From Leuconostoc miyukkimchii (lineage in GTDB: Bacteria; Bacillota; Bacilli; Lactobacillales; Lactobacillaceae), in the NCBI RefSeq assembly GCF_019656055.1, contig NZ_BPKY01000003.1, forward strand, positions 124,001-188,000: a stretch of DNA of 64,000 bases. The letters are read 5' to 3'. Positions 19,435-23,070 of this stretch are shown piece by piece (positions within the stretch are counted from its first letter, which is position 1; the number at the start of each line of letters is the position of its first letter). Made by a program: the position numbers and the translations under genes. A model generated the notes under the pieces. It ran no database searches. It saw only the letters and a list, made by a program, of their open reading frames with translations, and was not told where the DNA came from.

Positions 19435-20340
19435 CTAAATGTTTCGATTATCTGTACTATATCTTGGCTTTTGCGACTTAATTAAATCGTAGAACGCCTT
19501 ATAACTATTATACCTTGATTGTGAAATAGCGCCAGAGATTATGCTCGCTTTGATGGCACAGCCAGGTTCATTAAGATGAAGGCATCCTCGGAATCGACAA
19601 TCTTGACGCACAGTTACAAATTCAGGGAAGTAATCATCTAAGTCTTCTGCTGCAAAGTCAAATACCTCATACGATGAGAATCCAGGTGTATCTGCAATCA
19701 AAGCATCATCGACATGAATAAGCGTCACTTGGCGTGTTGTATGTTTTCCACGACTTAGCGCTTTTGAGACTACACCAGTTTCGAGTCCGAGTTTTGGTGA
19801 TAATTGATTTAAAAGCGTTGATTTTCCAGCACCAGTTTGTCCCATAAATACAGCCACTTTTTTATTCAAAGCAACTCGCAATTGAGATAGATTTTCCTGG
19901 GGATTTTCTAAAGATGGTAATATCGCAGTGTAACCAATTTTCATATAACGTGCGACTATTTCTTCAGCCTCAGATCTTTCCGCTGCTGTTAATAAATCGG
20001 ATTTGGTAAAGTAAATTAGTGGTTTCACGTAAGCAGCTTCCAAAGCCACTAATTGTCTATCTAATAGGTTTGGCGCAAAGTCTGGTTCCTTAAGCGCAGT
20101 TACAATCACTGCAATATCAATATTTGCAATTGGCGGACGTACAAGCGAATTATCTCTAGGATGGATTTTCCAGATTAATCCTTCATCATTTTCACTCTCA
20201 AAATCAACAAAATCACCGACAATTGGTTTTTGACCAGATTTACGGAATTCTCCCCGAGCACGTGTTCGTTGTACATCACCATTTTCAATTTGTATATCAT
20301 AGTAGCCACTCAGTGAGCGAATAATGCGTCCTGTTTTCAT
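19435..20340 (-). CDS. rsgA: Ribosome small-subunit GTPase RsgA
   Basis: 301 aa circularly permuted GTPase in 30S maturation. The N-terminal OB fold is followed by a G domain in the order G4 (TKSDLL), G1 ([14 protein letters not shown]), G3 (DTPGF), then a C-terminal zinc domain ([14 protein letters not shown]). Start ATG 20340 ([16 protein letters not shown]) matches the family N-terminus; the upstream in-frame extension reads through the prkC tail in another frame. No clear Shine-Dalgarno precedes it and a terminator-like hairpin lies between it and prkC. Confidence 0.96.
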
Positions 20341-20354
20341 ATTCTTATTGTAAC

Positions 20355-20380
20355 AAAAAAGCCGATTATAATCGACTTTT
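20355..20380 (-). terminator. Terminator-like hairpin between prkC and rsgA
   Basis: Minus strand: AAAAGTCGATTATAATCGGC then six T. The stem closes with one G-U wobble. It is only 15 nt before the rsgA start, so it would attenuate rather than fully separate rsgA from the operon. Confidence 0.6.
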
Positions 20381-20392
20381 ACTTTTATATGT

Positions 20393-22321
20393 TTAGTTTC
20401 TGCCTCGGCTACTTGATGAGTTATTTTCGGAGCTAGTTGCCGAGCTACTACTTGTAGTAGAGCTACTATTTTTTGATGACGCGTCACTAGACGAACTATC
20501 ATCATCATCGTCATCTGATGATGAACTAGATGATTCCTGTGGTCCTTGAGAAATAGTCACAAGCAGCACCATGTCTTTTGTAATGCTTGAACCCCCACGA
20601 ATAGATTGACTAATAACATGATCTTTTTTAGTGTTGCCATCGTATTGTGTATTGAAATTTACAACAATATCATGTGAGCTCGCCCAGCTTTGAACTTCTT
20701 CTTGTGTGCCTTTGCCAGTAAAATCGGGCACGCTAATCCGTAATGCACCTGTAGATACGGTAAATTCGACTGTCGTTGACGTGGGATCCACTTTACCATT
20801 AGCATCAAGTGATTGTCCAATTATTTTACCTTCTGATACACTATCTGACGGACTATCTTGCTTAGTCACACTATAACCCTGTGCTCTAAGCTGCGCAGCT
20901 GTCACATCATAATCAGAGCCGACATAATCACCAAATCTCACTTTCTCTCGTCCAGAAGAAATAATTAAGTTAATTATATCCCCCTTTTTCACTTCCACAC
21001 CACTTTTGCTTATTGAACGGACAACATTGCCTTTTGCAATAGTTTTAGAAGGTGTTGAGCTGACTGTACCAATGGCTAAGCCGGATTTTTTAATCCTAGC
21101 AGTTGCTTGATTTTGCGTCAAGTTAATCACATCCGGCACAATTACTTTACTTGATTGATAATTCAAAAAAACAATAACTGCAGTAGCGACAAGAATAAGG
21201 CTTAACATTACCCATGGCCATTTAGATGCTTTACGAAATTTTATACCGTTTTCACGTAGAACATTGCGCACATATTTGGGCGTACGGTCTACCTTATGTG
21301 CAATATCTTTAATAGCATAGCCTTTTTTACCGTGAGCTATAATGACGTCTTGAACTGATGGTTCTTCAGGTGTGTCATTTGGGAAAAGGTTATCCGACGA
21401 AACACCTGTTTTTAGCTGATCTTGAATTTGAGCCATTGGAATGATTCGTGTCTCGTCTATTGTGTCAGACATTGGCGCAAAACGTGTATCATCAGATCGA
21501 CGAGGTGATAATGCTGTTTGCAAATCTTCAGACATTGCTGCAGCACTGTAATAGCGATCCTGAGGTCGCTTAGCAGTTGATTTTAAAATAACATTTTCTA
21601 AGGCTTGTGGAATACGGGGATCAAAATCACGAACAGATGGCATGTCTGCTGTTGTATGTTTCATCGCCACTGCAACAGGTGTATCTCCCTCGTACGGTAC
21701 CTGTTTTGTCAACATTTCATAGAGCATCACCCCCAGAGCATATATGTCTGATTTCGCCGAAGCAAAACCGCCACGTGTCTGTTCTGGTGATAAATAGTGG
21801 ACAGAACCAATGACAGTATTTGTCTGAGTCATATCCTGAACTGACTTCGCAATTGCTATACCGAAATCAGTTATCTTGACCTGTCCATCTTCATTGATTA
21901 AAATATTTTGTGGCTTTAAGTCACGATGAATAATATCTGCATCATGGGCTGCTTGAACCGCACTTAAAACTTGTAACATAATATCAACAACCTGTTGATA
22001 AGGAATTGGAAAATGGTCAGCAATGTAAGACTTCAAGTCTGTCCCTGCCACATACTCCATCACTAAATACTGCGTACCCTCATATTCACCAGTATCATAT
22101 ACTTGGACAATATTGTCATGAACTAACTCTGTTGCAGAAATAGCCTCACGCTTAAATCGTTTCGCTAAATCCACATCATTTTTCATATCTAATCGCATTA
22201 TTTTGAAGGTAACATCACGATTCAAAAATTCATCATGCGCCAAATAAACATTGGCCATGCCACCCCCGCCAAGCGATTTGATAATTTTATAACGATTGTC
22301 TATCACTGTATCTGGTAACAT
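20393..22321 (-). CDS. prkC: PASTA-domain Ser/Thr protein kinase PrkC, with HTH-like linker
   Basis: 642 aa. Kinase domain ~10-270: glycine loop [10 protein letters not shown], catalytic K40, HRDLKPQN at 132-139, DFG at 152-154, and the activation loop [14 protein letters not shown]. One transmembrane helix (~368-386) leads to about three extracellular PASTA domains (~392-595) and a Ser-rich tail (597-642) containing a run of Asp. The kinase senses muropeptides/lipid II and phosphorylates division and wall proteins. Odd feature: residues ~324-363, just inside the membrane, look like a helix-turn-helix ([20 protein letters not shown]). It follows prpC by 2 nt. Confidence 0.96.
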
Positions 22322-22323
22322 AA

Positions 22324-23070
22324 TTATTTTGTGTCCTCTTCGTTGTTGCGACTCACCAAAAGCGCCGTTACGTTATCTGGTGCACCGTTATCATTAGCGG
22401 ACTGAATCAATTCGCACGCACGCAAATTCAAAGGTGTTTTTTCTCTCATAATTTGTTTTATTGTTGCTTCATCTAATACTTTCGTAATACCATCAGAAGT
22501 TAGCAGCAACATATCATTTTCAACAAAAACATGTTGACTAATTTCAATTTCTGCGTGATTATCCACACCCAAAAAACGTGTAACGCTATTTGCATTGGGT
22601 ACATTTTCTGCTTTTTCTTTACTAACAGTTCCAGTTCGTATAAGCTCATTTTTAAGATTATGATCAAACGATATTTGCTCTAGATTGTTATGATGTAATA
22701 AAAATGCCTTAGAGTCACCCAAATTGCCAATAACAACTTGTTCATCAAACAAAACAGCTAAAACTAATGTTGTAGCCATTGTCTTCAAGTCATTAAATCG
22801 TTGTCCTGCTTCAATCATGATACTATTTTCAGCAGATGTTGTCTTTTTTAGCCATAATATTGCTGACTTGATTGTCTCAATATCATTTTCTTCCCAAGCA
22901 TGGCCAAAATGTTCCACAGCCATAGCGCTGGCAACTTCGCCACCTTCAGTTGAAGTTACACCATCGGCTACAACAACCATCACGATTTTTTGTTGATTTG
23001 TAAAAGCGCCAACATAGTCTTGATTTTCATCACGTTTAACGCCTGGATCAGTATGAAATGCTATCTGCAT
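22324..23070 (-). CDS. prpC: PP2C-type protein phosphatase PrpC/Stp
   Basis: 248 aa Mn/Mg-dependent phosphatase that reverses PrkC phosphorylation. Metal-binding motifs: KRDENQDYVG at ~9-18, VVVADGVTSTEGGEVAS at ~32-48, LLTSDGITKVL and NDNGAPDNVTALLV near the C-terminus. It is immediately upstream of prkC in the same operon, the usual arrangement. Confidence 0.97.
   Translation of the reverse strand: MQIAFHTDPGVKRDENQDYVGAFTNQQKIVMVVVADGVTSTEGGEVASAMAVEHFGHAWEENDIETIKSAILWLKKTTSAENSIMIEAGQRFNDLKTMATTLVLAVLFDEQVVIGNLGDSKAFLLHHNNLEQISFDHNLKNELIRTGTVSKEKAENVPNANSVTRFLGVDNHAEIEISQHVFVENDMLLLTSDGITKVLDEATIKQIMREKTPLNLRACELIQSANDNGAPDNVTALLVSRNNEEDTK

Follow-up and report, generated by a model that had tools for sequence, protein, structure and literature searches.

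Organization of the prkC Locus

The 64,000-nucleotide stretch of the Leuconostoc miyukkimchii genome analyzed here (the window) carries prkC, which encodes a PASTA kinase in which the kinase domain, the transmembrane (TM) helix and the PASTA repeats are all present, the best of the three Pfam PASTA stretches starting at residue 393 (Table 1). The PrkC, StkP and IreK kinases of the Bacillota share this arrangement of kinase, linker, one TM helix and PASTA region, and they presumably also share the placement of the gene, which here lies between what we take to be a prpC-like gene (22324-23070) and an rsgA-like gene. The rsgA-like reading frame overlaps prkC as listed (19435-20514), and the start MKTGRII, with its ATG near 20340 on the minus strand, is likelier than one at 20514.

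Table 1. Features of the prkC gene and its product, in window coordinates
Feature	Residues	Position	Strand	Basis
prkC, 642 aa, kinase - linker - HTH - TM - PASTA		20393..22321	minus	ORF and Pfam
Ser/Thr kinase domain	11-262	21536..22291	minus	Pfam Pkinase, E 9.2e-53
Disordered linker with DETRIIP motif	274-320	21362..21502	minus	pLDDT <50; identity 0.425
Predicted HTH module	321-363	21233..21361	minus	models, families, fold comparison, profile search
HTH helix 1	323-332 (323-333 in the 314-367 model)	21326..21355	minus	DSSP on model
HTH helix 2	337-344	21290..21313	minus	DSSP on model
HTH helix 3 (recognition-helix position)	348-357	21251..21280	minus	DSSP on model
Transmembrane helix	368-391	21149..21220	minus	modelled helix, block pLDDT 87-88
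Extracellular PASTA region	~393-595 (end estimated)	20537..21145	minus	three Pfam PASTA stretches, E 2.6e-28

Outside these domains, a Ser-rich extracellular tail of about 43 residues (20396-20524) extends beyond the PASTA region and has no invariant column over 37 aligned rows. The DETRIIP motif of the linker (residues 289-295, window 21437-21457) has ETKVL or DETKLV-like counterparts at about the same position in many Lactobacillales PrkC proteins, and motifs of this type are perhaps a conserved phosphothreonine site. A weak Pfam SNARE match was set aside, as it spans the junction of the helix-turn-helix (HTH) segment and the TM helix. One Lactobacillaceae genome (L097, G027:C1:678300-683000) apparently holds two tandem PrkC-like kinase genes.

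A Predicted HTH Fold in the Juxtamembrane Linker

A preliminary description of this DNA had pointed to window positions 21225-21360, which fall on residues 321-366, as an HTH segment of the resolvase or Spo0J type, unusual for a PrkC linker, which could dock DNA or protein and link wall sensing to gene control at the membrane. The peptides on which it relied do lie there, with an 11-residue stretch at 334-344, a DRT turn at 345-347 and a 12-residue stretch at 348-359, and structure prediction returned confident helices rather than disorder. AlphaFold2 was supplied with an alignment of 14 rows, namely the window and 13 of the 14 loci found by a genome scan. The scan used one peptide pattern, so that its 13 other loci are no census, and the locus left out, a Micrarchaeota match (L045), was rejected as a chance hit because it merely shares a 12-residue stretch within an unrelated 211-aa reading frame. 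The model of residues 314-367 contains three helices (Table 1) at block pLDDT values of 86-91. In the model of residues 1-392, the HTH blocks reached 80-84 and the TM helix 87-88, with the preceding linker below 50; its mean pLDDT was 60.8 (46-52 in the other four models), the kinase being poorly modelled from a shallow alignment. The models thus predict with confidence that residues 321-363 form a folded three-helix HTH with a tight turn, inside an otherwise disordered linker. The HTH core pattern is present at motif positions 4, 5, 8, 15 and 18; Asp occupies position 9 and Arg position 10, where the usual pattern has Gly and a hydrophobic residue, respectively.

Fold comparison by VIA-align bore out the resemblance to resolvases, with Z-scores of 6.0 to GcrA (5yiv; 1.7 A over 41 residues), 5.9 to the Sin resolvase (2r0q; 2.9 A over 43) and 5.4 to both the gamma-delta (1gdt) and Tn3 (5cy1) resolvases (5.7 and 5.6 A over 46), and the top rows were mostly DNA-binding HTH domains. 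Z-scores of 5-6 are middling and indicate a common fold, not a function. Foldseek found no match with an E of 0.001 or lower, and its first rows included ScpB, whose winged helix binds protein; searching the PDB with a sequence profile yielded nothing meaningful, its best match being a designed cage (E 0.16).

Of the 31 distinct segments, 26 were scanned against sequence families. With matches counted up to E 5, the Pfam families HTH_58, HTH_38, HTH_23 and HTH_28 matched 21, 20, 19 and 13 of the 26, and all named families matched by at least 10 segments are DNA-binding or DNA-related. PHROG 323 (transcriptional regulator) matched all 26, as did, weakly, the NCBIfam family Cbp1, a CRISPR repeat-binding HTH protein (best E 1e-5), for which the segment of the window scored 20.7 bits, far under the cut-off of 140. 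Scanned singly, only one segment, from a relative, passed a curated Pfam cut-off (HTH_58, 24.0 versus 23.8 bits); that of the window reached 20.0 bits. Although the three-helix fold is common to the serine resolvase and GcrA domains, the resolvase family HTH_7 matched only two of the 26 segments, weakly (best E 0.041). The proposed likeness to Spo0J/ParB proved weak, a ParB-like PHROG matching 15 of the 26 segments with a best E of 0.0036. With the ParB_N profile, the single match in the same genome was a gene on contig C7, not prkC. As controls, ten of ten shuffled segments gave no HTH family match (one had a chance spectrin match), and seven of seven linker pieces without the HTH gave no match at all, six of them from HTH-less PrkC and one, with six invented leading residues, from the stretch preceding the HTH of L020.

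Distribution and Origin of the Module

A profile built from 15 segments detected the module in 37 of 397 Lactobacillaceae genomes at E <1e-21, the next match being at 3.5e-4, and in 37 of 37 it lies in the PrkC reading frame. These genomes belong to five genera (19 to g1, Leuconostoc; 13 to g2; 2 to g7; 1 to g8; 2 to g56), and the helices are conserved in these 37. The genera other than Leuconostoc may include Fructobacillus and Convivina. The weak Lactobacillaceae matches (E 3.5e-4 to 0.1) were followed in part: five loci (L111-L115) gave no kinase reading frame, and another (L120) is, we presume, a carbamoyl-phosphate-synthase-like frame. An order-wide draw of 295 genomes gave six with a match at E ≤0.001, of which three, all from g1, were strong and three weak (1e-4 to 6e-4). 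A phylum-wide draw of 398 gave 24 matching genomes at E 1e-4, with a frame of kinase length only in the genome of the window, in which no second copy of the module was found at E 10.

In a tree built from 73 kinase domains (37 with the HTH and 36 from other Lactobacillales without it), the five genera form a single clade and the label changes once, at an SH-aLRT support of 99; the tree comes from a quick search with several long branches, and a count of label changes cannot separate gain from loss. As the module is absent elsewhere, we infer that it was gained once in the PrkC of the Leuconostoc clade.

The preliminary view that such a segment is unusual for a PrkC linker agrees both with its absence from these 36 proteins and with the juxtamembrane domain of pneumococcal StkP, which is intrinsically disordered by NMR and SAXS (PMC12077195); in the present PrkC, residues 274-320 are predicted to be disordered, whereas residues 321-363 are predicted to be a folded HTH. 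Juxtamembrane disorder of the StkP kind is not a defining feature of all PASTA kinases. Searches of the open-licence literature found no description of an HTH within the linker of a PASTA kinase, and absence there is weak evidence; in a data repository on kinases of probiotics, Leuconostoc among them (PMC9178022), the terms helix-turn-helix, HTH and PASTA are absent from the main text, the domain tables being in outside files.

Outside the clade, the best matches suggest that the closest relatives of the module are HTH-UTRA (GntR-like) regulators of other Bacillota. Of the phylum-wide matches, those in the remaining 23 genomes lie in frames of 199-285 aa, apart from one 92-aa frame at a contig end; a Pfam UTRA domain was matched in all three relatives scanned, over the cut-off in two, and the best E of an HTH-UTRA match to the PrkC module was 2.4e-9. 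HTH-UTRA frames carry DPFLxxxEIAxxVxTTPRYVRTILSE or a near variant, and the likeness lies in VxTTPRYVRTIL (HTH-UTRA) against VDRTPxYVRxVL (PrkC). They differ in having a UTRA domain, no kinase and conserved base-reading positions. Given the 40 residues compared, the kinship would amount only to common descent within the HTH superfamily. This family of HTH-UTRA regulators (loci L122-L144), present in 23 of the 398 genomes of the phylum-wide draw, has YVRT in 26 of 26 frames; in the three scanned, the HTH itself reached no Pfam cut-off.

Conservation of the Fold and Variation of the Base-Reading Face

Over the 37 rows, mean pairwise identity was 0.727 for the kinase, 0.644 for the HTH, 0.529 for the PASTA region, 0.425 for the linker (275-320) and 0.274 for the TM helix. 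In 15 close pairs, pN/pS was 0.031 for the kinase, 0.056 for PASTA, 0.069 for the linker, 0.074 for the HTH and 0.356 for the TM helix. The HTH is under purifying selection, which between close species is not stronger than that on the linker or the PASTA region. R346 and R352 are invariant in all 31 distinct segments, T347 and K361 are kept in 30 and K338 in 29, and P348, N358 and G359 are also fixed or nearly so. The net charge of the segment ranges from 0 to +6 and is +3 to +6 in 28 of the 31.

Base contacts of HTH proteins such as the 434 repressor and Hin usually come from motif positions such as 13, 17 and 20. We set the register of the PrkC HTH against these two proteins on the assumption that positions 13 and 17 contact bases; a literature search for this register gave no supporting paper. 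Residues 349, 353 and 356, the canonical base-reading positions, are variable even between close species. Entropy was computed over the ungapped 20-residue motif (residues 337-356), counting distinct motifs only, for positions 13, 17 and 20 and for the core (positions 4, 5, 8, 15 and 18). In the PrkC of 22 genomes (14 motifs, identity 0.71), mean entropy was 1.98 bits at the base-reading positions and 0.07 in the core, and in all 37 genomes (24 motifs, identity 0.67) it was 2.22 and 0.19. For ParB from those 22 genomes (15 motifs, identity 0.73) the values were 0.42 and 0.74, with 1.27 at position 13 alone, so that its contrast with PrkC rests on positions 17 and 20; the HTH-UTRA regulators (21 motifs from 26 frames, identity 0.70) gave 0.33 and 0.46. 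Counts with repeated motifs kept agree.

The PrkC module thus keeps its fold together with R346, T347, P348, Y/F350 and R352, but not its base-reading face. Variable base-reading positions beside an almost constant core disfavor a shared operator, and with it the suggestion of gene control in the preliminary description, since the same positions are nearly fixed in HTH-UTRA and ParB proteins of like identity. What a variable face leaves is contact with the DNA backbone, binding of a protein or pairing inside the fold.

The noc-like Gene in the Same Genomes

The possibility that the HTH replaces Noc was considered and set aside, as the noc-like gene is also missing in HTH-less genomes and its absence is no proof. 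All 22 HTH genomes examined have one ParB_N gene and lack the second, noc-like one. Two strong ParB_N genes (>100 bits) were found in 9 of the 15 Lactobacillaceae genomes without the HTH and in 4 of 23 genomes from other families of the order, the noc-like gene being missing in 6 of 15 and 19 of 23, respectively. At ten loci that were read, under gene names that we take to apply, the order was rsmG-noc-parA-parB in four HTH-less genomes and rsmG-parA-parB in four of four HTH genomes; of two further HTH-less genomes, G035 is also without the noc-like gene and G022 has a single ParB_N gene and no parA. At G000:C7:155000-160000 (L151), no noc-like gene lies between rsmG and parA. It is likewise absent from the HTH-less genome that the kinase tree places closest to the HTH clade (on a long branch, with support 81). 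Loss of the noc-like gene does not predict the HTH, because HTH-less genomes lack the gene too; such loss is common and either preceded the HTH or was separate from it.

Possible Functions of the HTH Module

Placed between a disordered linker and the membrane in the models, the HTH is best read as a docking module, for DNA or for protein. We tentatively favor, as the leading candidate though with less than even confidence, a module that would dock on DNA with little sequence specificity and so cluster or activate PrkC, by analogy with YabT of Bacillus subtilis. As described in two papers (PMC6333020, PMC3708118), YabT consists of a kinase, a DNA-binding juxtamembrane stretch (274-315) and a TM helix (316-338); DNA activates the protein, presumably without recognition of a particular sequence, and YabT is enriched at the sporulation septum. 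The same papers describe its DNA-binding stretch as highly basic and disordered without DNA, use B. subtilis PrkC as a control in the DNA-binding assay and state that YabT differs from other characterized Hanks kinases. Both proteins would have a DNA-binding stretch between kinase and TM helix, a candidate one in the present PrkC; YabT has no extracellular sensor, whereas the present PrkC has three PASTA stretches and a predicted folded HTH. In such a scheme, the PrkC of the Leuconostoc clade would have gained, once, an HTH of the resolvase/GcrA kind between linker and membrane helix. The module would dock nucleic acid under the membrane (the nucleoid, or septal DNA) through the backbone and with little sequence specificity, and several PrkC molecules on one stretch of DNA might bring their kinase domains together and favor trans-autophosphorylation, as in YabT. 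PrkC would then sense wall fragments outside through PASTA and DNA inside through the HTH. Retention of R346, R352, T347, K361 and K338 alongside variable residues 349, 353 and 356 suits backbone contact. The confident three-helix model, the mostly DNA-binding domains at the top of the VIA-align comparison, the DNA-binding or regulatory nature of the matched families and nearest relatives, and the mostly positive charge of the segment also appear to count for DNA docking, with the missing noc-like gene of the HTH genomes as side evidence that is offset by its absence from many HTH-less ones. Against it, helix 3 lies only about 10 residues from the TM helix, which in the model would leave little room for DNA at the bilayer, the highly basic and disordered stretch of YabT is unlike the present one, and the StkP juxtamembrane domain favors recruitment and is probably dispensable for activation. 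A more specific version we consider rather doubtful: a sequence-blind HTH apposed to the membrane would read unsegregated DNA at the division site while PASTA reads wall precursors, and the kinase, gated by DNA, would serve as a nucleoid checkpoint for septation in this clade, which lacks the noc-like gene.

Loss of the base-reading face suits a protein partner equally well, and a protein-docking HTH, which would bind a divisome or elongasome protein and so place PrkC or present a substrate, is a possible reading that we rank close behind DNA docking. RodZ offers a precedent, being a cytoplasmic HTH tied to the membrane that binds MreB; its HTH belongs to another family (HTH_25), and this genome has a separate RodZ-type HTH_25 gene along with two full-length MreB matches. 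Near-fixation of R346, T347, P348, R352, N358 and G359 beside unconstrained base-reading positions, and ScpB among the first Foldseek rows, are in line with a protein ligand, and the juxtamembrane domain of pneumococcal StkP (PMC12077195), whose role was only recently assigned, favors recruitment of division proteins, is required for phosphorylation of some substrates, influences through its own phosphorylation how the division machinery assembles, and is likely not essential for activation. The families matched by many segments and the nearest relatives by domain make-up are nonetheless DNA-binding, and the segment is mostly positive. It is unlikely that the HTH is only a structural spacer, a rigid or dimerizing three-helix cap that sets the height or geometry of the kinase at the membrane and has no ligand: the HTH does adjoin the TM helix directly and the fold core is its most conserved part, but the invariant charged residues R346 and R352 lie beyond the hydrophobic core (though they could pair within the fold), and the 36 other Lactobacillales PrkC manage without the module. 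Less probable again is a sequence-specific membrane-bound regulator whose HTH would bind an operator with an occupancy changed by PASTA signals; the fold and the likeness to HTH-UTRA regulators speak for it, and its target could differ between species, but the entropy at motif positions 13, 17 and 20 runs the other way. That the segment is a chance helical linker and no domain, as a single barely passed Pfam cut-off might suggest, is hardly credible beside the purifying selection, the conservation in 37 genomes, the confident model and the lack of any HTH match among the ten shuffles, and we rejected it on the shuffles, the linker controls and selection.

Implications

A clade-wide, predicted folded HTH provides a discrete and removable module in food bacteria with which one may ask whether a PASTA kinase is gated from the cytoplasmic side by DNA or by a protein partner. 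Should the module bind DNA, PrkC of this clade would join YabT as a DNA-dependent Hanks kinase of independent evolutionary origin and, to our knowledge, would be the first with an extracellular wall sensor.
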